In this document: positions 1-46,193 of the stretch, one piece after another
Numbering within the stretch: position 1 is the stretch's first letter
How the letters are laid out: the number at the start of each line of letters is the position of its first letter
IMG/VR virus record: IMGVR_UViG_3300021964_000107
Coordinates: 1 to 50,386 of that record
Strand: one strand, 5' to 3'
DNA: 50,386 nt
Source of the DNA: a virus
Translations under genes and position numbers: made by a program
Notes under the pieces: model-generated
What the model was told of the DNA's origin: nothing
What the model saw: only the letters and a program-made list of their open reading frames with translations
Database searches by the model: none

Positions 1-661
1 ACCTTTTCTTTTTGTCTAACTCACCTTGTATCCAATTCAATCCAGTTTTGTTTTGGACTTTCTTCTTTGCAAGACTCATTACTTGTTTATATACAGGCCC
101 CATGACATCTTCTTCTGAATCATTATTATCTACTACAATAAAGTTCTGTCTGAAGTATTGACTGAACTTACCCATATTAGACTGTACAGTTTTCCATGAC
201 TTAGTTGCAATAGATCGTGGTACAGTTCTATCTCTTTTCGCATTTCTTTCTAGTGCAGTTTCAAGAGAAGTATTTACAAATATCATATGTACATCATATC
301 CAAGTTGTTTTAACTGTGTCGCTTGTTTTGCAATCTTATCATAGTCTTTTCCAGTTCCATCAATAATAAGTCCAAGTCTGCCTTCAAGATAATTTGCTTG
401 TCTGGCTGCAGTTACTCTTTTTGCTCTATCTCGTAACTTATCTCTAGGTTCTTCTTCACTCTTGGGCATTTTCAAAGACAATCCAGCGTCTTTAAGATAC
501 TTCTCAAATACGTCATCTGAATTAACAATCTTTAGACCAAGACCGCCTGTACCTCGTTTTACAACATAGGACTTACCACTCCCTGGGCCACCTGCTAAGA
601 AAAATGCTTTAAGTATGTTGGGGTCGTAAACTCCCTCTTGTAAATCTTGGAATGTTTTCAT
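1..661 (-). CDS. P-loop kinase with capsid-targeting-like N-terminus (partial at left edge)
   Basis: The gene starts at 661 and runs off the left edge, so the C-terminus is missing. The N-terminus MKTFQDLQEG resembles the capsid-targeting leader of T4 internal head proteins, with a possible prohead-protease site L-Q-E|G. A Walker A motif, GGPGSGKS, follows at about residue 24, and IIDGTGKD about 75 residues later. This is the layout of zeta-toxin/polynucleotide-kinase type ATPases that phosphorylate small molecules or nucleic acid ends. The fold is clear; the substrate is not known. The leader is shared with late genes at 31.4-46.2 kb, which suggests the kinase is packaged in the head. That is inference. 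Confidence 0.8.
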   Translation of the reverse strand, partial: MKTFQDLQEGVYDPNILKAFFLAGGPGSGKSYVVKRGTGGLGLKIVNSDDVFEKYLKDAGLSLKMPKSEEEPRDKLRDRAKRVTAARQANYLEGRLGLIIDGTGKDYDKIAKQATQLKQLGYDVHMIFVNTSLETALERNAKRDRTVPRSIATKSWKTVQSNMGKFSQYFRQNFIVVDNNDSEEDVMGPVYKQVMSLAKKKVQNKTGLNWIQGELDKKKR

Positions 662-31382: not shown

Positions 31383-31895
31383 TTAATTCTCCTTGTTAAA
31401 TTGTTCAAAACTCATTTTAGGCCCAGAGGTTTGAAAGTTTTTCTTTCTCATTACTGTCTTTGCAATGAGTTCTAGTTCACCACCTTTTAGATTTAGTACA
31501 AAAGGCATATTGATATCTGTCTTCATGTCATTGATAACTGCTTCTGCATCAGGCCCAAGTTTTGCAATCTTCTTACCATACTTCTTAAATGATTGTTTAA
31601 ATAGTCTAGTAAGTTCTGCTGGTGTGATTTGTTTGACATTTCTTTTATCATTTACTCTGTCTAGGAAATGACGAGTAAATTCTACATCTATACCAAGAGA
31701 TGCAAATATTCTATCTGCATACTTTTCTACTTGGTCTAAATCTGATTTCTTTATTTCTTTTTCTGATTGTGCATTTAAGTCTGCAATAGGTACATACTGA
31801 CCCATACCAGGCCCAGTACTTGCACCACCAGTCGCATAAGTTCCCAACGCATCATAGTTGGCATACTCATCAAGATATGTTAAAAAGGTTTTCAT
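31383..31895 (-). CDS. conserved phage protein with capsid-targeting-like start
   Basis: 170 residues. The N-terminus MKTFLTYLDEY fits the leader MK-T/S-F...(L/I/V)-x-E shared by late genes here. The core (VEFTRHFLDRVNDKRNVKQI, then INDMKTDINMPFVLNLKGGE) is conserved in cyanophages; its function is unknown. If the leader works as in T4 internal proteins, this protein is carried in the head. Confidence 0.65.
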   Translation of the reverse strand: MKTFLTYLDEYANYDALGTYATGGASTGPGMGQYVPIADLNAQSEKEIKKSDLDQVEKYADRIFASLGIDVEFTRHFLDRVNDKRNVKQITPAELTRLFKQSFKKYGKKIAKLGPDAEAVINDMKTDINMPFVLNLKGGELELIAKTVMRKKNFQTSGPKMSFEQFNKEN

Positions 31896-32692
31896 TATGC
31901 GTTATCCACTAGAATAATTGTAAAGTCTGCTGATATTGTTGCATTTGCAGAACCTTGAACTCTCAAGTCAATATCTGTTTTCTCTGTGAATTTTAGGGGA
32001 ACAGGAAAATCAATTGACTGATTAGATTGATTCAATGATAGTGTAGATGTAACTCTAAATGCACCACCGAATGGTCTTTGAAATAGGAACAAGTCCGTTG
32101 ATTGGTTCTTACTTGCTGATGCATTGATGTTTGTCATATATCCAGTTTTACCAGCAGGGATTGTATAGAAACATTGTAGTGTCTGTCCAAATCCAGCACC
32201 AATCTCTGTAACAACTGTTCCACCAATACTTGCTTGAATCTTACCAACATTCGTTGCATCATTCATAAATGCACGATTGACTCTAGTGAATGAAGTTGAA
32301 CCTGTAACTGTACTAGTTCCAGTAAGAGTGAATGACTCTTCTACAAAATCATAGTTTGCATCCAACCCTTGAATAGTCACACCACCAGTATCAGAACCAG
32401 ATGTAGATACTACAGAAAGAGTTCCAGCAGAGTGGGCCCAAGGATATAATGCAGTTCCAGAAGTATCTGCCGCAGTCCATACAGTTGAGAATGTTGATAG
32501 TGCAGTTCCAAAAACTCCACCATATTTGTGAACACCAGAATAACCAGCAAGTCCACCGGCCGCAATAATCACATTAGACGCAGCACCAAAAGTATTGATG
32601 ATGTTACCATCTTGATCAGCAATCATCACCACTTCATGGTTAGTGGTCTGTTGTGGTATGTATGCGTTAGTATACTTACTATATTGTGCCAT
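31895..32692 (-). CDS. virion structural protein (beta-rich)
   Basis: 265 residues, Ser/Thr/Gly rich, low in Lys, with many short strands (SGTLSVVSTSGSDTGGVTIQ, DFVEESFTLTGTSTVTG) and a middle FYTIPAGKTGYMTNIN. This is the composition of head-decoration or tail-associated beta proteins in marine phages. It lies first after the 32694 gene in the late block. The exact place in the virion is unknown. Confidence 0.65.
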   Translation of the reverse strand: MAQYSKYTNAYIPQQTTNHEVVMIADQDGNIINTFGAASNVIIAAGGLAGYSGVHKYGGVFGTALSTFSTVWTAADTSGTALYPWAHSAGTLSVVSTSGSDTGGVTIQGLDANYDFVEESFTLTGTSTVTGSTSFTRVNRAFMNDATNVGKIQASIGGTVVTEIGAGFGQTLQCFYTIPAGKTGYMTNINASASKNQSTDLFLFQRPFGGAFRVTSTLSLNQSNQSIDFPVPLKFTEKTDIDLRVQGSANATISADFTIILVDNA

Positions 32693-32693
32693 G

Positions 32694-33206
32694 TTACTTC
32701 ATTTTTACCGACTTGTAAGCAAAGTCTGCAATCTTCATAAACTGAGCTTTAGTGCCATTAAGCATTCTGTCAAGTTTTTCTCTAGCATCTTTTTTAGAAA
32801 GTGCATCATATACTTTTGTAATTGCACTTGCAGTAAACAAATCAACTTTCATCTGACCATCTGACATTTTTACTGGTTTGTTTTGTTTATTTTTGACAAT
32901 GCTTCTTAAAACTTTTAGATTATCTTCTGCAAGAAGTGACTCACGATTAAAGTCATTAAGTGATTCTTTAACTTTTTCTACGAACTTAGATTTCTTCTGT
33001 TCCATTCTTCTTTTTCTAGATGCTTCTAATTTTGCTTGATGTGCCTTATATTCTTTTGTTCGTGCATCAAGTAATTTTTTCTTTTTCTTTTTCATCATTG
33101 CATCTGGTGGCATTGCAACTGCTCCACTACCAGCGTTATTGGTAGGTGCATCTTCTTCAATTTCTTGACCAGTATATGCATTAATTTCTTTCCATTTAGA
33201 TGTCAT
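32694..33206 (-). CDS. Lys-rich conserved protein
   Basis: 170 residues. Residues 38-75 are very basic (MMKKKKKKLLDARTKEYKAH). A helical C-terminal part includes TASAITKVYDALSKKDAREK. It is probably a virion-associated DNA-interacting or scaffold-like protein, of a type seen in cyanophages. It overlaps the upstream gene by 11 bases. Confidence 0.6.
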   Translation of the reverse strand: MTSKWKEINAYTGQEIEEDAPTNNAGSGAVAMPPDAMMKKKKKKLLDARTKEYKAHQAKLEASRKRRMEQKKSKFVEKVKESLNDFNRESLLAEDNLKVLRSIVKNKQNKPVKMSDGQMKVDLFTASAITKVYDALSKKDAREKLDRMLNGTKAQFMKIADFAYKSVKMK

Positions 33207-33813
33207 CTTTAATATCCTCCAAACTTATATATATTTTTTCTTGGGATTTGATATGAATAACTGGAAAAATCTCAACACCCAAAACTGTATCTACTGGCGC
33301 TTCGTCTTCGTAAGCAATAACTTTATCGCCTTTCTTTGCAGATAACTCTTCTTCTTCTTTATTTAGTATATCGTTAATTAGAACATACTCTCCTTTGGGA
33401 AGTAGTTCTCCAAAACCAATAACTTCCTCTGATATATCATCATCAAACTCTATATTGTTTTCTTTGAGATATTTCATAAATTCTTTTTCAAACATATCTG
33501 GGTCATCTACAGATTCTTTGAATGTATCTTTTAATAGGAATAGTGCAGCTGCATATGTACCAACTTTAGTTCTAAGTCCAGGCACTTTTGAAAATATTTT
33601 TTTGATATTGAATACTAACTTGTGTAAAATTGTATATGCGTTTTTTTGTTCTCCTGTTGCAAGTTCTACTGCTGGTTGAGTGGACTTTGGTTTCTTAATA
33701 CGATTACCTTTTTCATCAATGATACCTAACTTAAACGCATCTGTCTTTTCAAACGGAGTAGTAAGTAACTTTAGAAATCTGTAGGTAACAAATAAATCAA
33801 TCGCCCTGCCCAT
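33196..33813 (-). CDS. conserved T4-like virion-region protein
   Basis: 205 residues, MGRAIDLFVTYRFLKLLTTPF, then AFKLGIIDEKGNRIKKPKST and a hydrophobic helix (YAAALFLLKD). The C-terminal half is beta-rich (FGELLPKGEYVLINDIL). It is well conserved in marine T4-like phages; the role is not known to me. It overlaps the upstream gene by one base. Confidence 0.65.
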   Translation of the reverse strand: MGRAIDLFVTYRFLKLLTTPFEKTDAFKLGIIDEKGNRIKKPKSTQPAVELATGEQKNAYTILHKLVFNIKKIFSKVPGLRTKVGTYAAALFLLKDTFKESVDDPDMFEKEFMKYLKENNIEFDDDISEEVIGFGELLPKGEYVLINDILNKEEEELSAKKGDKVIAYEDEAPVDTVLGVEIFPVIHIKSQEKIYISLEDIKDDI

Positions 33814-34175
33814 TATAGTTCCTTTAATATCTTATCTACATTATCATCTTTAGTAATGTGATTTAATTCATCATCTCTAAGTATATTTAGAAATAATAAA
33901 AATGATTTCAATGCTGACCAATATTCTTCTTGTATTTTATATAACAAAAGTGTTGCACAAGCATCAGCACCAAACACATTATTTAATACAATAATATGAT
34001 TTAAGAGTAACCTTTCTTTTAATACTCCAGTATCATAATATTTTCTTAAAAGACGTTTAATATATTTAAACCTCTTTAAGTCATCTTCAAATTCTTTTTC
34101 ACCCTCACAATGTGGATTTGTATAATTTCTTATAGCAAACATCAACACATTTTCAGGCGTTATTTTTTCATACAT
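33813..34175 (-). CDS. conserved helical phage protein
   Basis: 120 residues, TPENVLMFAIRNYTNPHCEG, then EFEDDLKRFKYIKRLLRKYY and LLNHIIVLNNVFGADACATL. It is all-helical and conserved next to the 33196 gene in T4-like marine phages. Function unknown. Confidence 0.65.
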   Translation of the reverse strand: MYEKITPENVLMFAIRNYTNPHCEGEKEFEDDLKRFKYIKRLLRKYYDTGVLKERLLLNHIIVLNNVFGADACATLLLYKIQEEYWSALKSFLLFLNILRDDELNHITKDDNVDKILKEL

Positions 34176-34627
34176 TATGATATAGTGGCGTAAACTTTAC
34201 ATGAATTATTTCTTACCATTTCATAATTAATATTCAAACTCAAACCACCCTCAATCATATGTGAAATTCCATCATCACTTAAAAATTCGTCAATAGGTGT
34301 ATCTGTGTCTTTACCAAATCTACCACCGAATAATGTTAATGGAATACTAAATGAACCACTTTTTCCTTCCATTGTAGGAATAGGCCCACCTAATGCTAAA
34401 CCAATTTTTCCAAGATTATTTTTTAATCTATTAATAGCGTGTTCTGCAACAATATACTCGTGGTCTGCAATTCCACCAACGATTGCATTTAATCGTCTAA
34501 GAACTGCTGGATTACCAACTTCAGATGGATTTACTTCAAGACTACCAGCAAAGTTGTTTGGATTTTCTCCAACAGGCCCAGTAGGGAATCCACTATCTTC
34601 TTTCACGAAACTTTTGAAACTTTTCAT
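34175..34627 (-). CDS. conserved protein with capsid-targeting-like start
   Basis: 150 residues. The leader MKSFKSFVKED matches the MK(T/S)F...(V/L/I)-x-E pattern. The rest includes HEYIVAEHAINRLKNNLGKI and SGSFSIPLTLFGGRFGK. It is likely a late, possibly packaged protein. It is promoter-distal to a terminator at 34645, so it must have its own start of transcription or depend on read-through. Function unknown. Confidence 0.62.
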   Translation of the reverse strand: MKSFKSFVKEDSGFPTGPVGENPNNFAGSLEVNPSEVGNPAVLRRLNAIVGGIADHEYIVAEHAINRLKNNLGKIGLALGGPIPTMEGKSGSFSIPLTLFGGRFGKDTDTPIDEFLSDDGISHMIEGGLSLNINYEMVRNNSCKVYATIS

Positions 34628-34644
34628 TTTCTTTTCCTTAATCT

Positions 34645-34676
34645 AAAAAGGGGAGAGAGTTAATCCCCTCTCCCCT
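34645..34676 (-). terminator. rho-independent terminator after the fibre-like genes
   Basis: On the minus strand GGGGAGAG, a 10-base loop, CTCTCCCC (34675-34650) and then five T. It lies between the stop of the 34707 gene and the start of the 34627 gene. Confidence 0.78.
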
Positions 34677-34706
34677 ATATTTAGGTAGACTATAGATATT
34701 ACTTAA

Positions 34707-35189
34707 TTAGGAAATATCTATGATGTCAGCGACAATATCTGCACCAACGTCAGCAAAACCAATGATTGCCCATGCAGAACCAGTCCACATTAACATTGCA
34801 CTATCGCCATCATCAACAAAGTTGAGGTCAGCATAGCCCAATCTATTTTGAGGTGTACAGACAGATGCACCTGCATCTGTGTCAGCAATTATCATTTTAA
34901 TTTGACCTTGCACAGTTCCATCAGCAAGTGTTGTTGCACCATTAGTAGCTTCTAGTCCTAATAATGTTACAGCAGTTGTAATTGAAATAGCACCAGAGTT
35001 CTGTACAGCAGTCATATCTTGAAATGAATTTGAAAATCCGATAAAAGACGGCAAGTTATTAATGAAGTTAGTTACTGAAACCTTCTTATTAATTGGTGTT
35101 CCTGTTGGATCATCAATTATATGAAGTAAATCAGCACCAGCTACACCAGTACTTATGTCTGTCAGAGCGGTTACTTTTTTATCAGCCAT
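34707..35189 (-). CDS. fibre-like virion protein, tandem copy 2
   Basis: 160 residues, [40 protein letters not shown]. This N-terminus is typical of phage tail-fibre or head-fibre start domains. The C-terminal half has [20 protein letters not shown]. It is a close paralogue of the next upstream gene, about 80% identical by eye. It is followed by a strong terminator. Confidence 0.7.
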
Positions 35190-35221
35190 GAGGCTTCTCC
35201 TTTACAGTTAAATACTAGTTA

Positions 35222-35704
35222 TTAGTTAGCAATATCAATTAAGTCAGCAGGAATATCGGCACCTACGTCTGCGAAACCAATGATTGCCCAAGCAGCACCA
35301 GTCCACATTAACATTGCAGTATCTCCGTCATCAACAAAGTTTAAGTCTGCATATCCAAGACGAGTCTGTGGAGTACATACTGAAGAACCACCATCTGTGT
35401 CGTGAACAATAATCTTGATTTGACCTTGTACAGTTCCGTTTGCAAGAGTTGTTGCTACGTTATTTGATGTAGTTTCTAGTAAAGAAACAGCAGTTGTAAT
35501 AGATACTGCAGCTGTTTGCTCTGAAGTAAAATCTTGAATTGAATTTGAAAATCCAATAAAAGATGGTAGGTTATTAATAAAGTCTGTTACAGATACTTTC
35601 TTATTAATAGGTGTTCCAGTAGGGTCATCTACAACATGAAGTAAGTCTGCACCAGCTATGCCTGTTGACAAATCTGTCAAAGCGGTAATTTTCTTATCGG
35701 CCAT
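35222..35704 (-). CDS. fibre-like virion protein, tandem copy 1
   Basis: 160 residues, MADKKITALTDLSTGIAGAD and [20 protein letters not shown], same architecture and length as the 34707 gene. The differences are concentrated in the middle (residues 58-90). Each copy has its own identical upstream AGGAGAAGCC ribosome site. The tandem pair indicates a recent duplication with divergence, perhaps two fibre or decoration variants. Confidence 0.7.
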   Translation of the reverse strand: MADKKITALTDLSTGIAGADLLHVVDDPTGTPINKKVSVTDFINNLPSFIGFSNSIQDFTSEQTAAVSITTAVSLLETTSNNVATTLANGTVQGQIKIIVHDTDGGSSVCTPQTRLGYADLNFVDDGDTAMLMWTGAAWAIIGFADVGADIPADLIDIAN

Positions 35705-35726
35705 TTGGCTTCTCCTTTAATCTAAA

Positions 35727-35742
35727 CCCTCTTAATTGAGGG
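35727..35742 (-). terminator. weak hairpin between small coiled-coil gene and fibre-like gene
   Basis: CCCTC, loop TTAATT, GAGGG, then TTTAG on the minus strand: a short stem that might reduce read-through. Confidence 0.35.
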
Positions 35743-35755
35743 AATGTTACTGTGG

Positions 35756-35983
35756 TTATTTATCCACATCACTTGAGTCAGAAACCACTTCTGGCTCAAC
35801 ATTATCAATTTCTTGTAAAAAGTTATCACATTGTTGTTTTGCACCCATAAGTGCATTTAACAATGCAACACTTTCTATTTTTTGTTGTTCTAGTTCTGAC
35901 ATCTTTTGTCTGGCTTTTTGTATATCAGAATCTAAAATAGTTATTCTTTTTTTTATCATATTCTTAGTAATAGTCATTTTCAC
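35756..35983 (-). CDS. small coiled-coil protein
   Basis: 75 residues, helical throughout (TKNMIKKRITILDSDIQKAR, QKMSELEQQKIESVALLNAL), with an acidic Ser/Val/Asp tail. Ribosome site GTGAGGTGAAA. A late promoter lies 22 bases upstream. Possibly a chaperone or trimerisation helper for the adjacent fibre-like proteins; this is inferred from position only. Confidence 0.6.
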   Translation of the reverse strand: MKMTITKNMIKKRITILDSDIQKARQKMSELEQQKIESVALLNALMGAKQQCDNFLQEIDNVEPEVVSDSSDVDK

Positions 35984-36004
35984 CTCACTTAATCATTACA
36001 AAGT

Positions 36005-36012
36005 TATTTATA
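36005..36012 (-). promoter_or_regulatory. T4-type late promoter
   Basis: TATAAATA on the minus strand, 22 bases before the small coiled-coil gene and ahead of both fibre-like copies. Confidence 0.72.
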
Positions 36013-36016
36013 AGAG

Positions 36017-36904
36017 TTAGGATACTGTCATTGTTGCATCTGCATCAGCAGTTAGTGTTAAGTCTGCAGCCATTCCAGTACCATTATCAACAGTCATAAA
36101 TGCACCTAAATCTCTACTTGAACTATCTGTTCCATCTAGTGTGATAAATGATTCTGCGTCATCAGTATCATCTAATGCAGTTGTACCACTCTCCATTTTA
36201 ATTTTATCATCAGCAACAAGTTTCTCTATTGTTCCACTATTTAAAGAGATTGCATCATCAGAATTAATACCTAGTGTATTGTTTGTTACATTTGATGTTC
36301 TGGTGTCTGTACTCGCTGGTAGAGAAAATGCCATAATACCCTCTGATAATACAGATACACTTGAATTAAAATCCATTGTTGTTCCAAAAGTTGAATCTAA
36401 TGCACTTGCTTGTTTTAATTGTAATTGTGGTGTGCCAGTTACATGAATTGGTTCGTTGAAGTAAACATATGCAGTTACATCTCCAAGTGTTGATGATGCA
36501 ACACCAGTAAACGTATCTCCGTCTGGAAAAAATGCTGTCTTATCAGTTGTACTACCTAATGTAATATGTGTAGGTGTAGGAACGTCAATAGACTTCTGTA
36601 AATTTCTACTACAAACCAGAACCTCTGGTTGTGCAGCCTTGTTATCGTTTCCAGAGTTTGCATTGCCAGGTGTAAACACCCACCCAGAATTAGTAGCAAT
36701 TACTTTCTCTTTTGCATACGGACTATCTCCGTTTGCTCGTTCTGTTAAATATGATGGTTTAGCTTCAGAAGCACTTGCATCAACAGCAATTAATCTGTCA
36801 CCTTCATCAGTATTAGCAGCTGTTCTGTCTAGTAATACAAATCCATCATTTTCTGATTCACTTGCATCTTCCAAAACTACATTAAAACTTTTTCCAAAAG
36901 GCAT
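36017..36904 (-). CDS. virion structural protein with Ig/Big-like region
   Basis: 295 residues, rich in Asp/Ser/Thr and nearly without Cys. The N-terminal domain starts MPFGKSFNVVLEDASESEND; a middle beta domain contains YVYFNEPIHVTGTPQLQLKQ, which resembles bacterial Ig-like/Big strands. The end is repetitive (TADADATMTVS). It is likely an exposed decoration or fibre protein. It is expressed from its own late promoter, with ribosome site AAGGAGAGAAAG. Confidence 0.66.
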   Translation of the reverse strand: MPFGKSFNVVLEDASESENDGFVLLDRTAANTDEGDRLIAVDASASEAKPSYLTERANGDSPYAKEKVIATNSGWVFTPGNANSGNDNKAAQPEVLVCSRNLQKSIDVPTPTHITLGSTTDKTAFFPDGDTFTGVASSTLGDVTAYVYFNEPIHVTGTPQLQLKQASALDSTFGTTMDFNSSVSVLSEGIMAFSLPASTDTRTSNVTNNTLGINSDDAISLNSGTIEKLVADDKIKMESGTTALDDTDDAESFITLDGTDSSSRDLGAFMTVDNGTGMAADLTLTADADATMTVS

Positions 36905-36926
36905 CTTTCTCTCCTTATTTTCCTAT

Positions 36927-36934
36927 TATTTATA
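36927..36934 (-). promoter_or_regulatory. T4-type late promoter
   Basis: TATAAATA on the minus strand, 22 bases before the 36904 start, directly after the stop of the HAD-type gene. Confidence 0.74.
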
Positions 36935-36935
36935 A

Positions 36936-37451
36936 TTATTTGAAACCTAATCGTTTCAATTCGTTTAAAGTTTTTGGAACAGCAGTATGGTGTATACCAA
37001 TACCACCTTTAGCCTCCCACTCTTTAATATTTTTAATATAGTCATCAATAAGGACATTTGGTTTTCCATCAGTTTGAGCAAATGCTTGTTTCTGTGAACG
37101 CATTACCAAGTGTATATTACCTCTCTTAAAATTAGTATTTTTAGAGAGCCACTTCATTTTTCCAGACTTTGAGTTTGGGTCTTTACCAGAATATGCAGAG
37201 AGTATATGTGCATCATATCTTAAAATACTTTGTACTATCTTCTTTGCACCTGGCATCCACTCTAAGTTCGCCCAAAAATCTTTCGTATTAGTAATCTTTT
37301 CCCACCTTGTTTGTTTGTTTGCAAGAGGAAAAGGCATACCAATAACCTTTTCTGCACCTTTTAGAAAGTCACAGAGAACCATATCCATATCACAATAGAT
37401 TGATGATAAGTCCTCTTTGCTTACTTCTAATAGGTCTTTTAAACTTTTCAT
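36936..37451 (-). CDS. HAD-type 5'-nucleotidase with capsid-targeting-like leader
   Basis: 171 residues. The leader MKSLKDLLEVSKED (possible site L-L-E|V) is followed by SSIYCDMDMVLCDF, with the catalytic D21 and D23 of the HAD fold, then AHILSAYSGKDPNSKSGKMK and PNVLIDDYIKNIKEWEAKGG. This is the 5'(3')-deoxyribonucleotidase-like pattern. It would dephosphorylate nucleotides. The leader suggests head packaging. Confidence 0.78.
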   Translation of the reverse strand: MKSLKDLLEVSKEDLSSIYCDMDMVLCDFLKGAEKVIGMPFPLANKQTRWEKITNTKDFWANLEWMPGAKKIVQSILRYDAHILSAYSGKDPNSKSGKMKWLSKNTNFKRGNIHLVMRSQKQAFAQTDGKPNVLIDDYIKNIKEWEAKGGIGIHHTAVPKTLNELKRLGFK

Positions 37452-37999
37452 TACTTAACATTCTTCTTTCCAATAGAAGTTTCAGTCTTCACTTTTTCTT
37501 TCATATCTGGGTCAACACTAACTTTGGTCATTGGTTTCCCAGTCATAGTCTTATCTTCCTTTTTAGAAGATTTCTTTTCTTCTTTCTTTTCAAATGGATT
37601 ATGTCCTTCTTCTACACCCCACATATTAGCAAGTACTGAACGCATAGAGTTATTCTTCTCTTGCATCATGTTTACTTGTTTATTCCAATCTTCTGTAGTT
37701 TGGCCAGGAGTAACTTTCTTTGTATGGTCTGCATACTCTTTAGTACCCATCTCATATGCCTCATTATTATCTTTCTTCATTGCTTTAGCAACTGCCTTAC
37801 GTCTTTTTGCAAGATACTTATCAGATGCATCCTTATCTCCATCATTGTCTATATCACCATCTTCTTTACCAACTGGATCAAGTTTTTCTTTTACTTTTTT
37901 TTGTTCTTCTATTTGAGATTTTACTCCACTTACAGCATTAAGAATTGCTTCCTCAAGACTGCCTGGCTTTCTCTCAAAATATTTACTGTTATAACTCAT
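37451..37999 (-). CDS. charged late protein with dockerin-like calcium motif
   Basis: 182 residues, Lys/Glu rich. PGSLEEAILNA near residue 12 contains a possible protease site L-E-E|A. GDIDNDGDKDASDKYL near 48-63 looks like an EF-hand/dockerin loop and is followed by a basic helix (AKRRKAVAKAMK). The motif recurs in cyanophage structural proteins. It is probably part of the packaged protein set. It lies between the polyprotein-like gene and the HAD gene. Confidence 0.66.
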   Translation of the reverse strand: MSYNSKYFERKPGSLEEAILNAVSGVKSQIEEQKKVKEKLDPVGKEDGDIDNDGDKDASDKYLAKRRKAVAKAMKKDNNEAYEMGTKEYADHTKKVTPGQTTEDWNKQVNMMQEKNNSMRSVLANMWGVEEGHNPFEKKEEKKSSKKEDKTMTGKPMTKVSVDPDMKEKVKTETSIGKKNVK

Positions 38000-38000
38000 G

Positions 38001-40277
38001 TTATTTCCCCTTTACAGTATTGAGCAAGTCTTTGTAAGACTTTGCAATTGAATTTTGAAACTTCAATTTATCATCTGAAGTTCTCATTTTCATGTGCATA
38101 TCTATTGCTTTTTGTGCAATTCTCATATCCACTTTCTTTTTACCATCTGCAAATTCTACGTCTTTATTTCCTCTCATGGAAACAGACTTTCTAAGTTGCA
38201 TGATAATATTCTTTCCAGCGTTTTCTATGTCTTTATCAGTTGCAGTATTATCTACATCTGCTGGGTCTACTTTCTCTGTAAGAGTTTGATATCCCATACG
38301 AATATTAGATACTTGTTCAATTAATTCAAGTTCTTCTTTATACATATTTAGTTCAAATGGTTTAGAACCACCCTTATTGTAAACTTGGATTTGTAGATTT
38401 CCACCTTTGCCTTTTAGTTTGTAGGTATTAGTTTTACCCTCTGAAGGTTTCTTAGGCCCAGTTGCAACTTTATTGTCAATTTCTTTTGGGTCTACTGTGA
38501 TACCCATTTTCTTTTTTGCGTAATCATATGCGTGTTGCATTGCACTACTAAAGTCTTTATGATAAAGGTCGTACTTTTCTTCAAGTTCTTCACTTTTCAT
38601 ACTTCTATGTTTAAATGCAGTTCTAGTTAATGGTTCGCCTTCTTTTGCATTTGGATACATTTGTAAAAAAGTATTTGGGTCATTTCTACCAATAACATCT
38701 AAAATTTGCTCAAGTGGGTCTGTATCTAAATTACCAATAAACTTTTTAAGTTTCTCCCTTGAAGCTGGGTCTGATGCTTGAACATATAATGCTCTTGCCT
38801 TTTCAAAATCTTTCTTGTCCATACCACCAGTTTTTGCAAGGTCAGCTAATGCTTTTGCACCTTTTTCTTGTGGTTTAGTATCTTTGAAAGAACCAGGCTT
38901 ATATGCCATTTCATTAACTTCTTCTTTAAGTTGAGATTTGTCAACTGTATCACCAATACTCTGTGCAGTTTTTAGTCTTGCCAGTTTTAGAGGTGCAACA
39001 TCTTTGAATCTCTTCTCTAGAGAACGTCTGTCTAGTTTCAAATCTCTTTCATCACTACCCATTGAATAGATTTTCATATCTTTTCCAACAAGAGCATATT
39101 TCATCTTTGGTGCTTCTTCTAGTGTTTCTTCTTTAACTTGTTTAAATGTAGCACTTCTACCATACGCCATTTTTATAAAATCTTTTATTTTATTTGCATC
39201 ACCTGTAACTTTTATACTATCTTTACCAAATGGTTTTGCATCAAATTTAACACCCTTGAAACTAGGGCTTCTGTGTGCGTTGTTCATTGTTGCGGCAGTA
39301 GATTTAGGATCATCTATGTTGCCAACAATCATGGTTACGTTAGATGCTTCATCAATCTCAACACTTTCTTCATTCATAGCTTTCTTTAATAACTTATCAG
39401 TCATGTCGGTTGTCATGCCAGATGTAGTCGCATCACCAGTTGAACTTCTACCGATAACAGTTCTTAAAAAATCACTTACTTTTTTCTTTGGGCCGATAAC
39501 TCTAACACTTGCACCAACTGATGCAGACCTAAGACCTAACCCTCTAGCATTTTTTGCTACTTGTGCTGCAATCTTTTTTGTATCACCTTTTTTAATAAAG
39601 ATATCTTCTTGTGCTTCATCAAGTATTTCTTCTTTTATATCTCCAACCTTTGCACCAGGCGAGTTAAGAACATAATTAGTATCTGGGCCTTTGCGAACTG
39701 TGGCACCAGTTTTCTTTACTAACTTCATCATATCTGATTTACTACCACTTGCAACAACTTTATTTTTTAACACATGATGATACATTGCTTCATCAAGTTC
39801 AACTTCTTCTGTAGTAGGAACTAAAAAGTAATCTCTAAGTTTATTCATACTGTTAGATGAAATAGCAAGTTTGTTAGTCCACCAACTTGGTAATGAATCT
39901 TCTGGATTCATACTTTGTAGTTTTGATGATATTTGCATTGCATCTTCAATCATAATTTTACATTGACGAATTGCAGAAGCAACATCTGTATGTCCATCTT
40001 CATTTACTTCTTTTTTTTCATTTGTTTCTGCGTGTTTCTTCATCATATCTTGAACAATGTCACTTTCATACTCATCTGGAAATTTCTTCTTAACATCTTT
40101 CATAAGAGCACTTGTATTACCCTTATATTTTCTATCACTAACCATTCTCTCTATGTCTTTTTGTGTCATAGGATTGACTCTGGCAGTCTTTTTTCTAAAG
40201 GCTGTACTTGTGACTCTTTCACTAAGCAACTTTTCTTCTATTTCCTTTACCTCATTTAATAGTGTTGACATTCTCAT
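38001..40277 (-). CDS. 758-residue polyprotein-like internal head protein
   Basis: The leader MRMSTLLNEV is followed by modules separated by acidic sites of the form EE..(L/I/V)-(D/E/N)-E|(A/K/M/Q): E163|A, E221|A, E310|A, E388|A, E456|M, E567|K, E654|Q. T4 prohead protease gp21 cuts after Glu in (L/I)-x-E. Two modules look related: SVRVIGPKKKVSDFLRTVIG and DSIKVTGDANKIKDFIKMAY. It is probably cut into small DNA-associated proteins during head maturation. No enzyme domain recognised. Ribosome site AAAGGAT. Confidence 0.72.
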   Translation of the reverse strand: MRMSTLLNEVKEIEEKLLSERVTSTAFRKKTARVNPMTQKDIERMVSDRKYKGNTSALMKDVKKKFPDEYESDIVQDMMKKHAETNEKKEVNEDGHTDVASAIRQCKIMIEDAMQISSKLQSMNPEDSLPSWWTNKLAISSNSMNKLRDYFLVPTTEEVELDEAMYHHVLKNKVVASGSKSDMMKLVKKTGATVRKGPDTNYVLNSPGAKVGDIKEEILDEAQEDIFIKKGDTKKIAAQVAKNARGLGLRSASVGASVRVIGPKKKVSDFLRTVIGRSSTGDATTSGMTTDMTDKLLKKAMNEESVEIDEASNVTMIVGNIDDPKSTAATMNNAHRSPSFKGVKFDAKPFGKDSIKVTGDANKIKDFIKMAYGRSATFKQVKEETLEEAPKMKYALVGKDMKIYSMGSDERDLKLDRRSLEKRFKDVAPLKLARLKTAQSIGDTVDKSQLKEEVNEMAYKPGSFKDTKPQEKGAKALADLAKTGGMDKKDFEKARALYVQASDPASREKLKKFIGNLDTDPLEQILDVIGRNDPNTFLQMYPNAKEGEPLTRTAFKHRSMKSEELEEKYDLYHKDFSSAMQHAYDYAKKKMGITVDPKEIDNKVATGPKKPSEGKTNTYKLKGKGGNLQIQVYNKGGSKPFELNMYKEELELIEQVSNIRMGYQTLTEKVDPADVDNTATDKDIENAGKNIIMQLRKSVSMRGNKDVEFADGKKKVDMRIAQKAIDMHMKMRTSDDKLKFQNSIAKSYKDLLNTVKGK

Positions 40278-40281
40278 GTTC

Positions 40282-43200
40282 TTATCCTTTCATCAAATCT
40301 GTTACAGACTTGGCACTCCAAAACTTACATGACCAATATCTTGCTTTATACTTAGGGCCAGGATTGTCGCAATTGTGTCTTGCACGAAAACTTTTTCTTC
40401 GTTCTGGGTCATCTCGTTTGATTTCCATATTAGGGTCACCAAACTCAACCTTTACAACATTTCCTTTGTCATTTTTGACATAAACCTTATATTTTTTAAC
40501 ATCACCTCTTGTTGGATTATTTAGTTCTTTTCCACTCTTATCATCTTTTTCTGTCATCTCACCCCATGCATTTCTCATCATCATTCTGTAAGGTGAATCA
40601 GTTGGTGACGTAAGAGTTTTCATTCTTTGAAATTTACTTACACCAGCTTTACCTTTTTTTGGCACTTTTAAATTTTTAAGTTTCTTATCTTTTTTTAAAA
40701 CACCCTCAATATAATTTAACATTTCCTCACCCTTTGCTCTTTTCATCTGTGCAGCTGAGGGAGCTCCTTTTGCACCTTTCTTTCTCATCTTCTCACCAGA
40801 ACCTCTTTTGATTCTTTGTCTTTTCTTGTGTATGTTTGCCCAAAGACTTTCATCAATATCTGTTCTACCAAAGCCTGGTTTTGGGTCACCTTTTTCTATG
40901 GAGTCAATATGTTGTTTCATGTAATCATCTACATCATCTGCAAGTCCAAGTTCTCCAGCAGTTGACATAATTTTATTATACAATTCTTTTGCTTTTACTT
41001 TTTGTTCGTCTGTTGCTTCTCCAGCATCCATAACTTCTTTTTCTAACTTATAGAAATCATCTTGTAATCTTACAAGTGGTTCAATGTTTGGTTTATCTTT
41101 ATTTGCACTCATAACCTTTTGTGCAGAACCACACATATAGAAAAACTTTGTAGTATAATTACCTACTGTGATTTCGTGTTCTGGTTGTTCTTGAATAGTT
41201 TCTTCCTCTAAACAATCATCACAACAAGCACCAATCTTTTCTAACATCTGGTCATGGACTTCGTTTAGTTTCCACCACCAGTCATCTTCATATCTCAACT
41301 GGTAAATTGCTCTTGTTTGATTAGACTCAAACCATTCGTTTACACTTTCTGGCCCTAGAACCTCATGTCCTTTTGTTTTCTTCTTTGGTATCATACCTAA
41401 TTCTTTTTCACTAAAATCTAAGTCAGTAGAAGTATAATTATCAGTTACTTTTTTCTTTATAACATTATAACCAGATTTAGTTAAATCTTTAAAAAACTTT
41501 TGAATATCTTTACCACCAACATCATCTTTAACATTAAACTTACTAAGGTCATCAGCATGATAATCTCTTAATTTATGTTTTTTAACCAGTTTATCAATAG
41601 TCTTTACATGAGGTTCTTTTCCAGTTCTTATAGGTTTCTCGTCTGGAGCATCTATTTGAAACTCTACACCAAAAGTTTTTGTTACTGTTTTCTTTTCTTC
41701 TATTTCAACTTCTTCACTTGCACGAACTTTATCTGCAAGGTCTTTGTCTGCCTTACCCCATGTACCAGATGACTTTGTTGTAAATGAGTTAACTCTTGCA
41801 AGTGCCCATTGTTGTGGAGTTGCCCCTGGCCTATGTCCAGTTTTATATGCAGCCATTCCTCTATCATATACCTTTTTCAATATAGAATAAGGCATACCAG
41901 TTTTCTTTGCTTTGTTAACAAGAGCAGTAATCTTTTCGTCTAAGTGATAAATCTCCATATCTACTTCCTCATTTTTGTCTTTTTTATCTAGATAGGCTGC
42001 AACTGCCATATCTTTAATTTTTTTATCTGATTTACCTTTAAACTGTGGTGCATCTGATTTTCTAAAATCGTCTACATAATCTCCAACATCTGCGTTCTTA
42101 CCAAGTTTTTCTTTGATACCAAGTTTCTTTCTCATATCATCAATCTGTTTCATAATCTCTTTGTGTTTAGGAGAACCAGCAGGAGCTCTCATTCCTTTAT
42201 TATAAAGTTTTAGTAGTTCTAATGGTATTTTAATATCTTTCTCACCATACATCTGTTTAAACTTCTTAGTATGTTTAGATGGTTTAGTTGTTGCAGATTT
42301 ATCTCCAGGCGCAGGCCCTTTCTTTCCTTTTTCAAAGTGTCTTGCACGAGCTTGTTTAGTAGACTTTGACATTGCATCGCCTTCAGTATCTTTTGCATAA
42401 TACTTTGCTGGTTGTGTACCCTCTCTATCTTTAACATCTTTATCTTGTTTTGTATCTCTTTCTCTAAGTCTAGGTTCTCTACGATTATCAGATGGTTCTT
42501 CGTTTTTAAGATTACTTGGGTCATTGTTCATAGGATTATTATCTATGTGTCCAACATCCATACCTTTAACTGCATTATCACCCATGACTCTACGAGCTTT
42601 GTTTCTAGAAGAACGTCTTGCAATTTGTTCTGGAGTTCCTTGATAATTTGCATATTCTTTCTTGTAATCTCTTTCTACAATATCATATAACCAAGTCTTA
42701 TGTACTTTATTGTTTTCATCTACAAATGATAAGTAGTTTGTACCTTTGTTAATTACTTTACCTTTTATACCTTTTGATTCTACTATGTCACCAATATTCC
42801 AGAGTTTTCCAGTCAGATATAAATCTCTTAGAGATTCAAAGTCAGTCATCTCTCCCATATCTTTTTCTTCACGAATGCCCATGTTTTTACGAACATCATT
42901 GTATAGTTTAAGTGCATCTCTAAAACCAGATGGAACACCAGTCTTGAAAGTATCAAAATCTCCAGCAGAAGCTGCAGCTCTCATCTTTGATGCAGACATA
43001 CCAGAAACACCCTCTGCATCTGGGTCACGCTCTCCAGCAGATACAACTTCTATATTATCAAAACCATAATATCCATGTCTACCATTTACACCATTATATT
43101 TGTTGAGTAAACCCTCAAACTCTGTAACTCTATCAGAACCAACAACCATAACAATTGCTCTATGACCTTTGTTATGTAATTCAACTGCAATGTCAAATAC

Positions 43201-43473
43201 CATTTTGATTTTTTTATTTGCCATAATATTCTTTGCATACTTTGGAAACATCTTTCTCATGTATGCAACTTTTAGTGCAAAGGGTAATGGGTCTTTCTTT
43301 GGATTCTGTGATTGTGATGAAAACACATACATCTTAGAACCAGCATTTTTAGACTGTTCTCTTGCAAGTGCATCAATTAATTTTTCGTGTCCAGTTGTAG
43401 GTGGATTGAATCTACCAAAAGTAAAGATTGCAGTATCACCTAACTTTTCAGTTATTTGAGAAAAATTACGCAT
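40282..43473 (-). CDS. 1063-residue multidomain nucleotidyltransferase, polyprotein-like
   Basis: The start at 43473 (AAGGAG, 11 bases upstream) gives leader MRNFSQITEK. Residues 14-34 (TAIFTFGRFNPPTTGHEKLI) carry the T-x-G-H motif of NMN adenylyltransferase-type enzymes. Near residue 310, MDVGHIDNNPMNNDPSNL is HNH-like. The rest is Lys/Glu rich, with further protease-like sites (YHLDE|K, EVEIEE|K, ETIQE|Q, DIDE|S). The C-terminal YKARYWSCKFWS is conserved in marine T4-like phages. It is likely a packaged late polyprotein; longer frames begin at 43494. Confidence 0.75.
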   Translation of the reverse strand: MRNFSQITEKLGDTAIFTFGRFNPPTTGHEKLIDALAREQSKNAGSKMYVFSSQSQNPKKDPLPFALKVAYMRKMFPKYAKNIMANKKIKMVFDIAVELHNKGHRAIVMVVGSDRVTEFEGLLNKYNGVNGRHGYYGFDNIEVVSAGERDPDAEGVSGMSASKMRAAASAGDFDTFKTGVPSGFRDALKLYNDVRKNMGIREEKDMGEMTDFESLRDLYLTGKLWNIGDIVESKGIKGKVINKGTNYLSFVDENNKVHKTWLYDIVERDYKKEYANYQGTPEQIARRSSRNKARRVMGDNAVKGMDVGHIDNNPMNNDPSNLKNEEPSDNRREPRLRERDTKQDKDVKDREGTQPAKYYAKDTEGDAMSKSTKQARARHFEKGKKGPAPGDKSATTKPSKHTKKFKQMYGEKDIKIPLELLKLYNKGMRAPAGSPKHKEIMKQIDDMRKKLGIKEKLGKNADVGDYVDDFRKSDAPQFKGKSDKKIKDMAVAAYLDKKDKNEEVDMEIYHLDEKITALVNKAKKTGMPYSILKKVYDRGMAAYKTGHRPGATPQQWALARVNSFTTKSSGTWGKADKDLADKVRASEEVEIEEKKTVTKTFGVEFQIDAPDEKPIRTGKEPHVKTIDKLVKKHKLRDYHADDLSKFNVKDDVGGKDIQKFFKDLTKSGYNVIKKKVTDNYTSTDLDFSEKELGMIPKKKTKGHEVLGPESVNEWFESNQTRAIYQLRYEDDWWWKLNEVHDQMLEKIGACCDDCLEEETIQEQPEHEITVGNYTTKFFYMCGSAQKVMSANKDKPNIEPLVRLQDDFYKLEKEVMDAGEATDEQKVKAKELYNKIMSTAGELGLADDVDDYMKQHIDSIEKGDPKPGFGRTDIDESLWANIHKKRQRIKRGSGEKMRKKGAKGAPSAAQMKRAKGEEMLNYIEGVLKKDKKLKNLKVPKKGKAGVSKFQRMKTLTSPTDSPYRMMMRNAWGEMTEKDDKSGKELNNPTRGDVKKYKVYVKNDKGNVVKVEFGDPNMEIKRDDPERRKSFRARHNCDNPGPKYKARYWSCKFWSAKSVTDLMKG

Positions 43474-43849
43474 CTGATTTAGAACTCCTTGCATCTTTTA
43501 CTTTTTGTATTTCTTTTTTCTTTACAACTTTTACAGATTTCATTGCAATCTTATTAATCATACCACTATACCTTGCAGATATAATTTGGTCAACCTTTAT
43601 TCTTTGTGCAATAGGCATTTCTTTATATTTTGGAAAAAATTTATCTAAGACTTTTTGTTTTGCTAACTTTGCAGCTTTAACTTTAATCTTTTCTGGAGAT
43701 GCAACTTTTAGTTTTGACTTTTCTACTTTCTTTTTAAAAGCAGAAGTTTTAGTTAATCGTTTCATACGAATAGCTGCTTTTCTTCTTGCAGCTTTATTTA
43801 CAACTTTTAGTTCTGATATATCAGAATATAGTTCTAAGAAAGTTTTCAT
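43466..43849 (-). CDS. highly basic internal head protein
   Basis: 127 residues. The leader MKTFLELYSDISEL (possible site I-S-E|L) is followed by an extremely Lys/Arg-rich body (RRKAAIRMKRLTKTSAFKKK, KLKVASPEKIKVKAAKLAKQ). This is what an internal protein bound to packaged DNA looks like. The ATG overlaps the upstream stop by four bases, and it overlaps the nucleotidyltransferase start by 8 bases. Confidence 0.72.
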   Translation of the reverse strand: MKTFLELYSDISELKVVNKAARRKAAIRMKRLTKTSAFKKKVEKSKLKVASPEKIKVKAAKLAKQKVLDKFFPKYKEMPIAQRIKVDQIISARYSGMINKIAMKSVKVVKKKEIQKVKDARSSKSDA

Positions 43850-45087
43850 TTATCCCATGCCTTGATTGCAGTAAAGTTGTTAAACGAGAACTCCATTCTG
43901 TCCACTAGTTTAACAGCACCACCACTAACTCTATCAATCGCAACATAACCCTCTGGGTTAGTTACTTTAAATCCATTTGAGGTCTTGATGAACGTATCCG
44001 TCAAACCCTTAACACTATTTAGTTTTTTTACAATTTGCATTTTTGCATCAACTAATAGGTTTTGGAACGTAATAATATTAGTTAAGTTGTTAGTGTGTTT
44101 CTTTACTTCTCTTACATACTCTTTCTGTATGTTCGTATATTTATCTTTACCTTTTGTACTTTTTGCTTTATCTATTTGTTTCTGAATAGATTGTTCAACC
44201 CAAGATTCATATCCTTTTGCATGAGCTTTAGGATTACTAATCTTTTGACCTTGACGAACCTTACTATTATTATATGTTGATAGTTTAGCACCAACAATCG
44301 CACCTTGCATACTTTCTTGTAGTTTCATAAACTTAGTTAACATAGGTGCGCTTATTTTTTGGAAAGTCTTACCAGTTTGTGAAAGTAGACCAGTAACAAC
44401 AGCAGTTTCTTTTGCATTAAATGTTGCAGTACCAGATGCATCTTTATAAGTTGCATCATCCATCCATATACTTGGAGTTTTCTTTAGACCAGATATATCA
44501 ACACCAAAAGATGCAGTCATGTCTTCTAGTTTACTTCCAGAATATGTTGTGTGCCATACAATACCAACTTTGGCTTTGTTTATAACCTTACCAAAATCAC
44601 TATCAACAGGCACAGCGTAGACAATAGTATTAGGTTGGAAAGTGTAGTACTTAATACCTTCAATTGTGGTTGACTCCACATCATTTGTGAACATGAGGTC
44701 GCCTTGTATAACGGACTTGATTCCGAGTTTTGAGAACTCTGCGAGTGCGACTTTGAATTTTTCAACAAGTGCTCCTTTGAGGTCATCATCTATCTCCTTA
44801 GCTGTTTTGTACAGTTTGGGATTGACGTTGAATACCGACTTCTTTGCAACAAAGAACTTTCCATCAGAGGGGTCAATACCAGCAAAGATTGCTGGAGCAC
44901 CATCCCATTTGACTGTCATATTAATACTGGAACGAGCATTACCAGCCAACATATCTCTAAGAGATTGTAGGAAGTTAATTGCAGCTCTGCCACCTGGCAC
45001 ACCATTGTTGATAATTTCATCTTCAATGTGTTCTAGATGTAAATTCTTTCCAGCTTTACTTTCTTCTAATTGTTTGAAACTAATCAT
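43846..45087 (-). CDS. ligase-like nucleotidyltransferase with capsid-targeting-like leader
   Basis: 413 residues. The leader MISFKQLEESKAG (possible site L-E-E|S) is followed by NMTVKWDGAPAIFAG with K60-W-D-G, the adenylation motif I of DNA/RNA ligases and capping enzymes, then FFVAKKSVFNVNP and SVIQGDLMFTND (motif IV-like). It is likely a polynucleotide ligase or related AMP-transferring enzyme. The leader suggests packaging with the genome. It overlaps both neighbours by 4 bases. Confidence 0.75.
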   Translation of the reverse strand: MISFKQLEESKAGKNLHLEHIEDEIINNGVPGGRAAINFLQSLRDMLAGNARSSINMTVKWDGAPAIFAGIDPSDGKFFVAKKSVFNVNPKLYKTAKEIDDDLKGALVEKFKVALAEFSKLGIKSVIQGDLMFTNDVESTTIEGIKYYTFQPNTIVYAVPVDSDFGKVINKAKVGIVWHTTYSGSKLEDMTASFGVDISGLKKTPSIWMDDATYKDASGTATFNAKETAVVTGLLSQTGKTFQKISAPMLTKFMKLQESMQGAIVGAKLSTYNNSKVRQGQKISNPKAHAKGYESWVEQSIQKQIDKAKSTKGKDKYTNIQKEYVREVKKHTNNLTNIITFQNLLVDAKMQIVKKLNSVKGLTDTFIKTSNGFKVTNPEGYVAIDRVSGGAVKLVDRMEFSFNNFTAIKAWDK

Positions 45088-46193
45088 TCTTGCACTCCGC
45101 TGTATTGCATTTTCAATTGTAGATACTGTCCTAGTCTACCTTGACCAGAAGTTCCTTTTTCTGGTCTTACACCAGAATCAGAACGAATGGTCATCTTTAA
45201 TGTTTTCTTATCACTAGGTGAGTGTATATCAATTAAATACTCTTGTACAGAATTATTATTTAAATATGCATAATGTTTAGTTACTAATGGTATCATATCA
45301 ACAATATCATCAATCTTTTGTTCAGCAGTCATACCAACAGCTTTAACCATTATAAGGGGAACTTTTTCTTCTTTCCTTTGTAAGTTAAATGTATTTTGAA
45401 CCCAATCTATAAACTGTTCTTTTTTTAAATTATTAAGAATATCACAGAAATTTTCTCTAGCAACAACTAACATCTCTGCATATAATTTATTTGCGCCATC
45501 TTCATCTTCTACAAAATAATCAACATATGCCTTAGTAACTTCCTTATTTTTGATAAAGTTACTTTTACTTGCAACTTGTTTAACACCAGGCACTTTAGAA
45601 TAAACTCTATTCCATAAGTCAGACTCTAGTTTAGAGGTAGAAACTCCCAGAGCTTTATATTGAGTTCCAACATAAGTATTTTTTAGTGGTTCTTTTGATT
45701 TTGCTGTTCCTGCTTTAAGACTTATACCTATTAATTCTTTGTTTTTAAATTCAACAAATATATCTCCAGCATGGTTATTTGGAACACCTTTAGGTTTTGC
45801 TCTATATCCCCATATAACATTTTTAATAGGTTTTGTTCTATCAAGGGTATATAGATAATTAGTAATACCTATTGCGTTTTCTATTTTAGTTTTTAAAAAT
45901 TTATCATCTAATGTTGGTAATTTATCAAGTACCAATTGAGCAGAATTTGCATCTTTAGTAGAAAAAGAACTTTTAGATTTTCCAGCCTTTAAATTTAATG
46001 TATATAAAAACTTTTTGAAATCTTCAACTGAAGATGGTCTATACTTATTGTTAAAAGCGAGTGCTGGAAATAATTCAGTAATTGATGCATTGAGAGTTGT
46101 ATCAACTCTTTCAAAAAGATATTGAACCTTATTTACTGGTGCGACATATTTTTCTTGAATTGGTTTGAGTTGACGAACATACTTTCTTAACAT
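45084..46193 (-). CDS. restriction-nuclease-like late protein (tentative)
   Basis: 369 residues. N-terminus MLRKYVRQLKPIQEKY (possible site I-Q-E|K). HAGDIFVEFKNKELIGISLKAG near residue 148 has the D...(S/E)-x-K layout of PD-(D/E)XK nucleases with an I-S-L-K-A-G strand, followed by a basic middle. The nuclease reading is inference. It is the first gene of the run downstream of the combined promoter at 46224-46256. Confidence 0.6.
   Translation of the reverse strand: MLRKYVRQLKPIQEKYVAPVNKVQYLFERVDTTLNASITELFPALAFNNKYRPSSVEDFKKFLYTLNLKAGKSKSSFSTKDANSAQLVLDKLPTLDDKFLKTKIENAIGITNYLYTLDRTKPIKNVIWGYRAKPKGVPNNHAGDIFVEFKNKELIGISLKAGTAKSKEPLKNTYVGTQYKALGVSTSKLESDLWNRVYSKVPGVKQVASKSNFIKNKEVTKAYVDYFVEDEDGANKLYAEMLVVARENFCDILNNLKKEQFIDWVQNTFNLQRKEEKVPLIMVKAVGMTAEQKIDDIVDMIPLVTKHYAYLNNNSVQEYLIDIHSPSDKKTLKMTIRSDSGVRPEKGTSGQGRLGQYLQLKMQYSGVQE

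Follow-up and report, generated by a model that had tools for sequence, protein, structure and literature searches.

This analysis concerns a stretch of 50,386 bases (positions 1 to 50,386 of the IMG/VR virus record IMGVR_UViG_3300021964_000107, hereafter the window), which is a fragment of the genome of a T4-superfamily phage, and a short N-terminal leader carried there by several proteins, including enzymes. We consider it very likely that these leaders are capsid-targeting sequences of the T4 type, namely that the proteins bearing them would enter the phage head, be cut by the prohead protease gp21, and be ejected with the DNA. The facts established are the leader itself, its conservation over unrelated domains, its absence from neighbouring genes, the genes for gp21, gp22 and gp23, and the published detection of leader-bearing homologues in virions.

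The leaders of reference are those of the T4 record, namely MKTYQEFIAE|A on IPII and IPIII, MKTFKEFTSTTTPVSTITE|A on IPI (MKTFKEFT...ITE|A), and FLTE|A on gp23, the bar standing after the Glu. T4 genetics has shown that residues 4 and 7 target, and that processing requires residues 8 and 10 (PMC9026906). Within the window, an anchored pattern of this kind (^M.{1,3}[FYLW]..[FYWH]?[LIVMF].E) is present on 6 of the 77 genes, with leaders that can be summarised as M-x-x-F/L..L/I-x-E and a Glu at residue 9 or 10. All six are in the list of a first-pass annotation of this DNA, which had claimed that a series of genes share an M(K/R)(T/S/N)F..(L/I/V)-x-E leader; the other 71 genes lack the anchored pattern. 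The genes concerned, named below by the window position of their first base, are the following, the first six being those with the pattern:

1-661, minus strand: P-loop kinase (Zeta-toxin/AAA_33 type), leader MKTFQDLQE|G at 635-661
31383-31895, minus strand: 170-residue protein, a weak member, leader MKTFLTYLDE|Y at 31866-31895
34175-34627, minus strand: 150-residue protein, T4-length leader MKSFKSFVKE|D at 34598-34627
36936-37451, minus strand: HAD phosphatase (5'-nucleotidase, NT5C-like), leader MKSLKDLLE|V at 37425-37451
40282-43473, minus strand: 1063-residue protein, predicted polyprotein, leader MRNFSQITE|K at 43447-43473
43846-45087, minus strand: DUF6267 protein with a KWDG motif, leader MISFKQLEE|S at 45061-45087
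43466-43849, minus strand: very basic 127-residue protein (38 K/R, 11 D/E), leader MKTFLELYSDISE|L at 43811-43849
38001-40277, minus strand: 758-residue modular protein, predicted polyprotein, variant leader MRMSTLLNE|V at 40251-40277
45084-46193, minus strand: 369-residue protein (phrog_2496), N-terminus MLRKYVRQLKPIQE|K, no convincing leader

Besides the six, the shared leader stands for 43849, where the Glu at residue 13 still fits the pattern, and survives as a variant in 40277, which has no Phe at residue 4. It fails for 46193, proposed as a possible leader gene, because the N-terminus encoded in the window is a poor match. The identities given earlier to 661 (kinase), 37451 (HAD nucleotidase), 43473 (NMNAT-like) and 43849 (very basic) agree with the families found. 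The kinase gene runs off the end of the window, and a complete copy is present on G001/L258, a contig discussed below. For the NMNAT gene there is an alternative in-frame ATG at 43494, but an AGGAG site lies between 43494 and 43473.

Of the six pattern genes, five belong to the block at 31,383-46,193, which has 16 genes (Fisher P=0.0012), and against a background of 1.5% for the anchored pattern at internal Met residues, the count in the window gives a binomial P=3e-6. These P values are descriptive only, because the pattern was written with knowledge of T4 and of these very sequences; independent tests come from the relatives and from the published virion proteomes.

Regarding the relatives, the closest kin by the DUF6267 protein is the Methylophilales phage Melnitz (Kyanoviridae, 141.5 kb), with 72% identity to the window protein, while Pelagibacter phage HTVC008M and many cyanophages are more distant by the same protein. 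Homologues were collected from IMG/VR, and a distinct N-terminus was scored as keeping the leader when [LIVMF]xE fell within residues 5-16. It is kept in 100% of the kinases (43 distinct homologues), 98% of the basic proteins, 88% of the DUF6267 proteins, 84% of the 34627 family (49 distinct homologues), 83% of the NMNATs and 81% of the HAD phosphatases. A scan of viral contigs with 34627 as the query returned two loci only. Phe occupies residue 4 in 76-100% of the kinase, NMNAT, DUF6267, basic and 34627 families, and Leu does so in the HAD family. In the DUF6267 alignment, F4, L7 and E9 are each at least 90% conserved and residues 2, 3, 5, 6 and 8 vary; it is the pattern that is conserved in the leaders and not the letters. 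The same family has the Glu at residue 9 in 32 distinct sequences and at residue 10 in 22, and therefore joins the short form to the T4-length form. For two genes the counterparts resemble T4 more closely than the window does: those of 40277 begin MTRYNKTMSE|A in Melnitz and MTRYTKTMAE|A in HTVC008M, retaining the aromatic residue 4, hydrophobic residue 8 and Glu 10 of T4, and that of 46193 in Melnitz has a perfect leader, MQGFKTFLSE|A.

A motif this short invites the explanation that the shared N-terminus is merely a convergent start of late genes (M-K-x-F), easily translated or helix-forming, and has nothing to do with the head; loose versions of the motif do occur by chance in 1.5-3% of N-termini. 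We think this very improbable, since genes of the same block lack the motif (0/46 and 0/39, or 0/85 together, for the neighbouring families 33813 and 34175), since the Glu keeps its position while other leader residues vary, and since the same enzyme families are found leaderless elsewhere, namely the DUF6267 proteins of S-SZBM1, S-CRM01 and S-RIM8 and the NMNAT of jumbo phage RaK2. S-CRM01 does carry leaders on its kinase (MISFDQFLSE|K) and NMNAT (MKLFNQFFKE|A). The occurrence of the same enzymes with or without a leader in different phages indicates a detachable element that is gained and lost.

An untargeted scan of all open reading frames (ORFs) of the fetched loci for a leader plus a Shine-Dalgarno sequence returned 181 distinct ORFs, which fall into no more than 8 clusters: five known leader families, a family like 37999, a RimK-like ATP-grasp enzyme, and one spurious ORF. 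The loci contain many neighbour genes as well, and the set is enriched for leader families because three of them were used to retrieve it. The RimK-like enzymes have perfect leaders, MTQKFSQFITE|E in Melnitz (L001:82-1131) and MGKFKEFITE|G in L047 (from base 7768, plus strand), and may be regarded from these sequences as a further candidate for packaging.

The protease needed for such processing is encoded by the same virus. Two IMG/VR contigs from sample 3300021958 overlap the window, G002 over 25.8 kb at 99.99-100% identity and G001 over 9.7 kb at 99.99%; a single virus population is, on account of these overlaps, spread over several IMG/VR records. G002 runs on into the head genes, namely gp21 (Peptidase_S77), gp22 (T4_CASP), gp23, portal, tail and terminase, and given its near-identity to the window, the prohead protease is present in the same virus. 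The gp21 that was expected elsewhere in the genome has in this way been located, alongside gp22 and gp23. The predicted cleavage site of gp23 on G002, FLGE|AAPTN, matches the leader-type sites. A near-identity DNA search of the block among named phages gave no match.

Published virion proteomes of cyanophages provide the second test. In S-CREM2, 52 of 219 proteins were detected in virions (Table 3, PMC10665884). A strict T4 motif ([FYLW]xxF[LIVMF]xE in the first 30 residues) is carried by eight S-CREM2 proteins, seven of them virion-detected and one undetected (Fisher P=2e-4), and the enrichment is also seen among non-structural proteins (P=3e-5). The detected set comprises ORF6 (S-adenosylmethionine (SAM) lyase), ORF12, ORF13, ORF14 (kinase), ORF136, ORF154 (NMNAT), and the baseplate protein ORF122, whose match is probably due to chance. 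Mass spectrometry has found NMNAT-type proteins in virions of S-CREM2, S-SCSM1, S-SZBM1 and S-CBWM1, and leaders are present on those of S-CREM2 (MKNFSSFLTE|A), S-SCSM1 (MKSFLQFLKE|A) and S-SZBM1 (MRFRQFIIE|A). In S-SZBM1 the leader-bearing NMNAT is listed in the virion, and the leaderless DUF6267 protein encoded next to it is missing from the list. The loose anchored motif was dropped as a predictor of virion proteins after the S-CREM2 and S-SCSM1 tests.

Some further sequence features were seen. The virion-reported S-CREM2 ORF12 (L088:7704-10313) is annotated as Cas9, has no Pfam domain that we could find, and has FASFMAE|A at residues 19-25. The family of window 32694-33206 (minus strand) has an EDAPTN(A/S)-type sequence near the N-terminus, like the new N-terminus of cleaved gp23 (E|AAPTNATG), and the virion-detected S-CREM2 ORF160 and S-SCSM1 gp275 copy the GFTG..A..GP.AG.DP stretch of their own gp23. 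By their sequences, such stretches may be a second signal, for head targeting or for mimicry of the capsid.

Taken with T4-like residues and the gp21, gp22 and gp23 genes of the same virus, the S-CREM2 enrichment supports the capsid-targeting reading of the first-pass annotation. Several observations count against it. The 31895 family often keeps M-x-x-F and mostly lacks the Glu (present in 17%), 31895 and 46193 are poor fits, and the NMNAT of HTVC008M begins MKTLKELLRKK, without the Glu. The loose motif fails to predict which S-CREM2 proteins are in the virion (P=0.23), and in S-SCSM1 the strict motif, found on 2 of 282 proteins, shows no enrichment (P=0.31), its two carriers being the virion NMNAT and a 106-residue protein not labelled as virion. 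All the virion support comes from cyanophages, and it concerns the longer form with Glu 10; most leaders of the window have Glu 9, one residue shorter than in T4. Finally, the authors of the proteomes allow for co-purification, and the S-CREM2 paper leaves undecided whether the enzymes are packaged or contaminants (PMC10665884).

It is also conceivable that the leader targets the scaffold core and that no enzyme is delivered, most of the proteins remaining uncleaved or acting as assembly factors lost before ejection. Targeting and processing are indeed separable in T4, where Asp at residue 10 targets yet blocks cleavage; the Phe retained without Glu in the 31895 family would suit such a role, and the residues after the Glu in the leaders (V, D, K, G) are less uniform than the Ala of T4. 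We judge this unlikely, because in six families conservation is highest at Phe 4 and at the Glu preceded two residues earlier by L, I or V, and because finished virions have yielded relatives of the NMNAT, SAM lyase and kinase.

The capsid-targeting reading would work as follows, with targeting through residues 4 and 7, cleavage after the Glu, and ejection inferred from T4. Late in infection, the N-terminus (Phe or Leu at residue 4 and Leu, Ile or Phe at residues 7-8) would bind the prohead's scaffold core, which is of the gp22 type, and thereby carry the tagged protein inside. Once the shell is complete, the gp21 of the phage would cut after (L/I)-x-Glu and release the enzyme from the core, and the freed enzyme would be ejected with the DNA. 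The payload would include the kinase, the HAD phosphatase, the NMNAT, the DUF6267 (KWDG) protein, the basic protein and others; by analogy with T4, the phage probably ships these leader-bearing enzymes into the host along with its DNA. In the long proteins, gp21 would also cut at (E)E-V-x-L-D-E|A sites lying between modules of about 90 residues.

These internal gp21-type sites, present in both long proteins, had been missed by the first-pass annotation. The separator pattern used, E[EDST][VLITM]x?[LIVM][DENSQT]E|[AKMSGQT], occurs in the window only in the 758-residue protein (four) and the 1063-residue protein (two). These sites, together with three looser ones, are all on the minus strand:

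39789-39809, minus strand: EEVELDE|A (Glu 163), 758-residue protein, predicted gp21-type site
39615-39632, minus strand: EEILDE|A (Glu 221), 758-residue protein
39348-39368, minus strand: ESVEIDE|A (Glu 310), 758-residue protein
39114-39131, minus strand: EETLEE|A (Glu 388), 758-residue protein
38910-38927, minus strand: KEEVNE|M (Glu 456), looser, 758-residue protein
38577-38594, minus strand: SEELEE|K (Glu 567), looser, 758-residue protein
38316-38336, minus strand: EELELIE|Q (Glu 654), looser, 758-residue protein
41695-41715, minus strand: EEVEIEE|K (Glu 593), 1063-residue protein, after a DUF5824 module
41188-41205, minus strand: EETIQE|Q (Glu 762), 1063-residue protein

The 1063-residue protein holds NMNAT/cytidylyltransferase, HNH-like and DUF5824 modules and further families. 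Among 2,563 ORFs of the related loci, 58 proteins have at least two separators, with a median spacing of 93 residues and 2.79 separators per protein against 0.018 in shuffles. The residue after the Glu is A, K, G, M or S. Modules of about 90 residues between separators recur in varied order and with varied neighbours (a first, single-linkage clustering merged everything and was replaced), and modules of the 758-residue protein are also found inside the NMNAT-led protein of loci L178-L181. Of the homology breakpoints in the 758-residue protein, 47% are no more than 12 residues from a separator, where 26% would be expected (P=0.006); in the second protein 18% are that near, where 5% would be expected (P=0.027). 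S-SCSM1 gp280, a virion-detected relative, has the same separators (KEEVELDE|R).

These sequences suggest that both long proteins are polyproteins cut inside the head; given the further separator sites, gp21 would probably cut them into many small proteins. The fuller proposal is that one head-entry tag and repeated prohead-protease sites package whole polyproteins, that gp21 cuts them in the head, that the pieces are injected with the DNA, and that modules are swapped at the cleavage sites to give an evolvable toolkit for the first minute of infection; we hold this to be evenly poised between right and wrong. The claim rests on the longer separator and the module breakpoints, because plain LxE counts inside the long proteins show no excess. 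This absence of excess counts in favour of a reading in which the (E)EVELDE|A repeats are flexible linkers or recombination points and the long proteins stay whole, like the polyvalent proteins (Iyer et al. 2017), and recombination alone can explain why breakpoints cluster at separators. Such a reading is a real possibility, though on balance we doubt it. Across the 58 proteins the separators keep an ending of the gp21 type, with (L/I)-x-E and then A, K, G, M or S, far above shuffles; their sequences agree with those of the gp23 and leader sites in this phage, and every one of the seven separators of the 758-residue protein lies in a low-confidence stretch of its AlphaFold model, itself weak (54). 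Recombination at linkers alone would explain the shuffling and not the constant (L/I)-x-E|A-type ends. On the simplest reading, small proteins are chained together by prohead-protease sites behind a head-entry tag.

As to the remaining genes, the description of 45087 as ligase-like is based on its KWDG and EG motifs and not on its fold: the AlphaFold model is poor (mean predicted local distance difference test score 57), Foldseek matched it to nothing, and no relative turned up when solved structures were searched by profile, for which reasons the ligase reading stays motif-based. The block also contains tandem paralogous genes for 160-residue proteins (34707-35189 and 35222-35704, minus strand), 77% identical in DNA.

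Capsid-targeting sequences are already known from T4 and virion NMNATs from cyanophages, and a review has suggested that T4-like phages may load various proteins by a capsid-targeting sequence. Our literature search, which covered papers outside subscription, found none linking these sequences to cyanophage or pelagiphage enzymes. What is new is the modular long proteins with gp21-type separators reshuffled between relatives, and the polyprotein reading goes beyond the polyvalent-protein concept. The leader provides both a mechanism and a rule of sequence for enzymes that recur in cyanophage virions, hitherto inseparable from contamination, and the rule lets candidate injected proteins be proposed from sequence in a marine phage family that is very abundant. 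A payload with nicotinamide adenine dinucleotide (NAD) synthesis, a kinase, a phosphatase, the KWDG protein, a SAM lyase and a RimK-like ligase points to immediate repair or counter-defence. Roles in NAD supply, nucleic-acid end repair and anti-restriction are reasonable guesses, the last in view of the SAM lyase of S-CREM2 and of T4 IPI; that the kinase, HAD phosphatase and KWDG protein form an RNA end-healing kit, or that the NMNAT answers NAD-depleting defences, is speculation. If the polyprotein step is true, the phage would deliver a protease-processed polyprotein.

Among known systems, the giant phages phiKZ, 201phi2-1 and SPN3US likewise package proteins in the head and remove propeptides by a Glu-directed prohead protease, with other propeptides and in another phage group; the likeness is one of description. 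The polyvalent proteins (Iyer, Burroughs, Anand, de Souza, Aravind 2017, PMC5512222) resemble the long proteins described here in being large, with several unrelated domains in one polypeptide, and are thought to be packaged and injected. Their release is ascribed to embedded peptidases (PMC5512222), common among them though not universal, whereas domain searches found no peptidase family in either long protein of the window, for which cutting in trans by the prohead protease is proposed. Comparable too are the virion NMNAT, kinase and SAM lyase of the cyanophages S-CREM2, S-SCSM1, S-SZBM1, S-CBWM1 and S-CRM01, with a homologous NMNAT, the same leader type and membership of the Kyanoviridae; the papers on them report detection, allow for contamination and offer no packaging mechanism, and the host of the present phage is probably not a cyanobacterium. 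The internal proteins of T4 are small and basic, whereas here leaders, many of them one residue shorter, are found on enzymes and large modular proteins too, and their cleavage is predicted. With IPI, an anti-restriction protein, IPII and IPIII they nevertheless share an N-terminus of about ten residues, an aromatic residue 4, hydrophobic residues 7-8, an (L/I)-x-E site, and gp21, gp22 and gp23 in the same virus.

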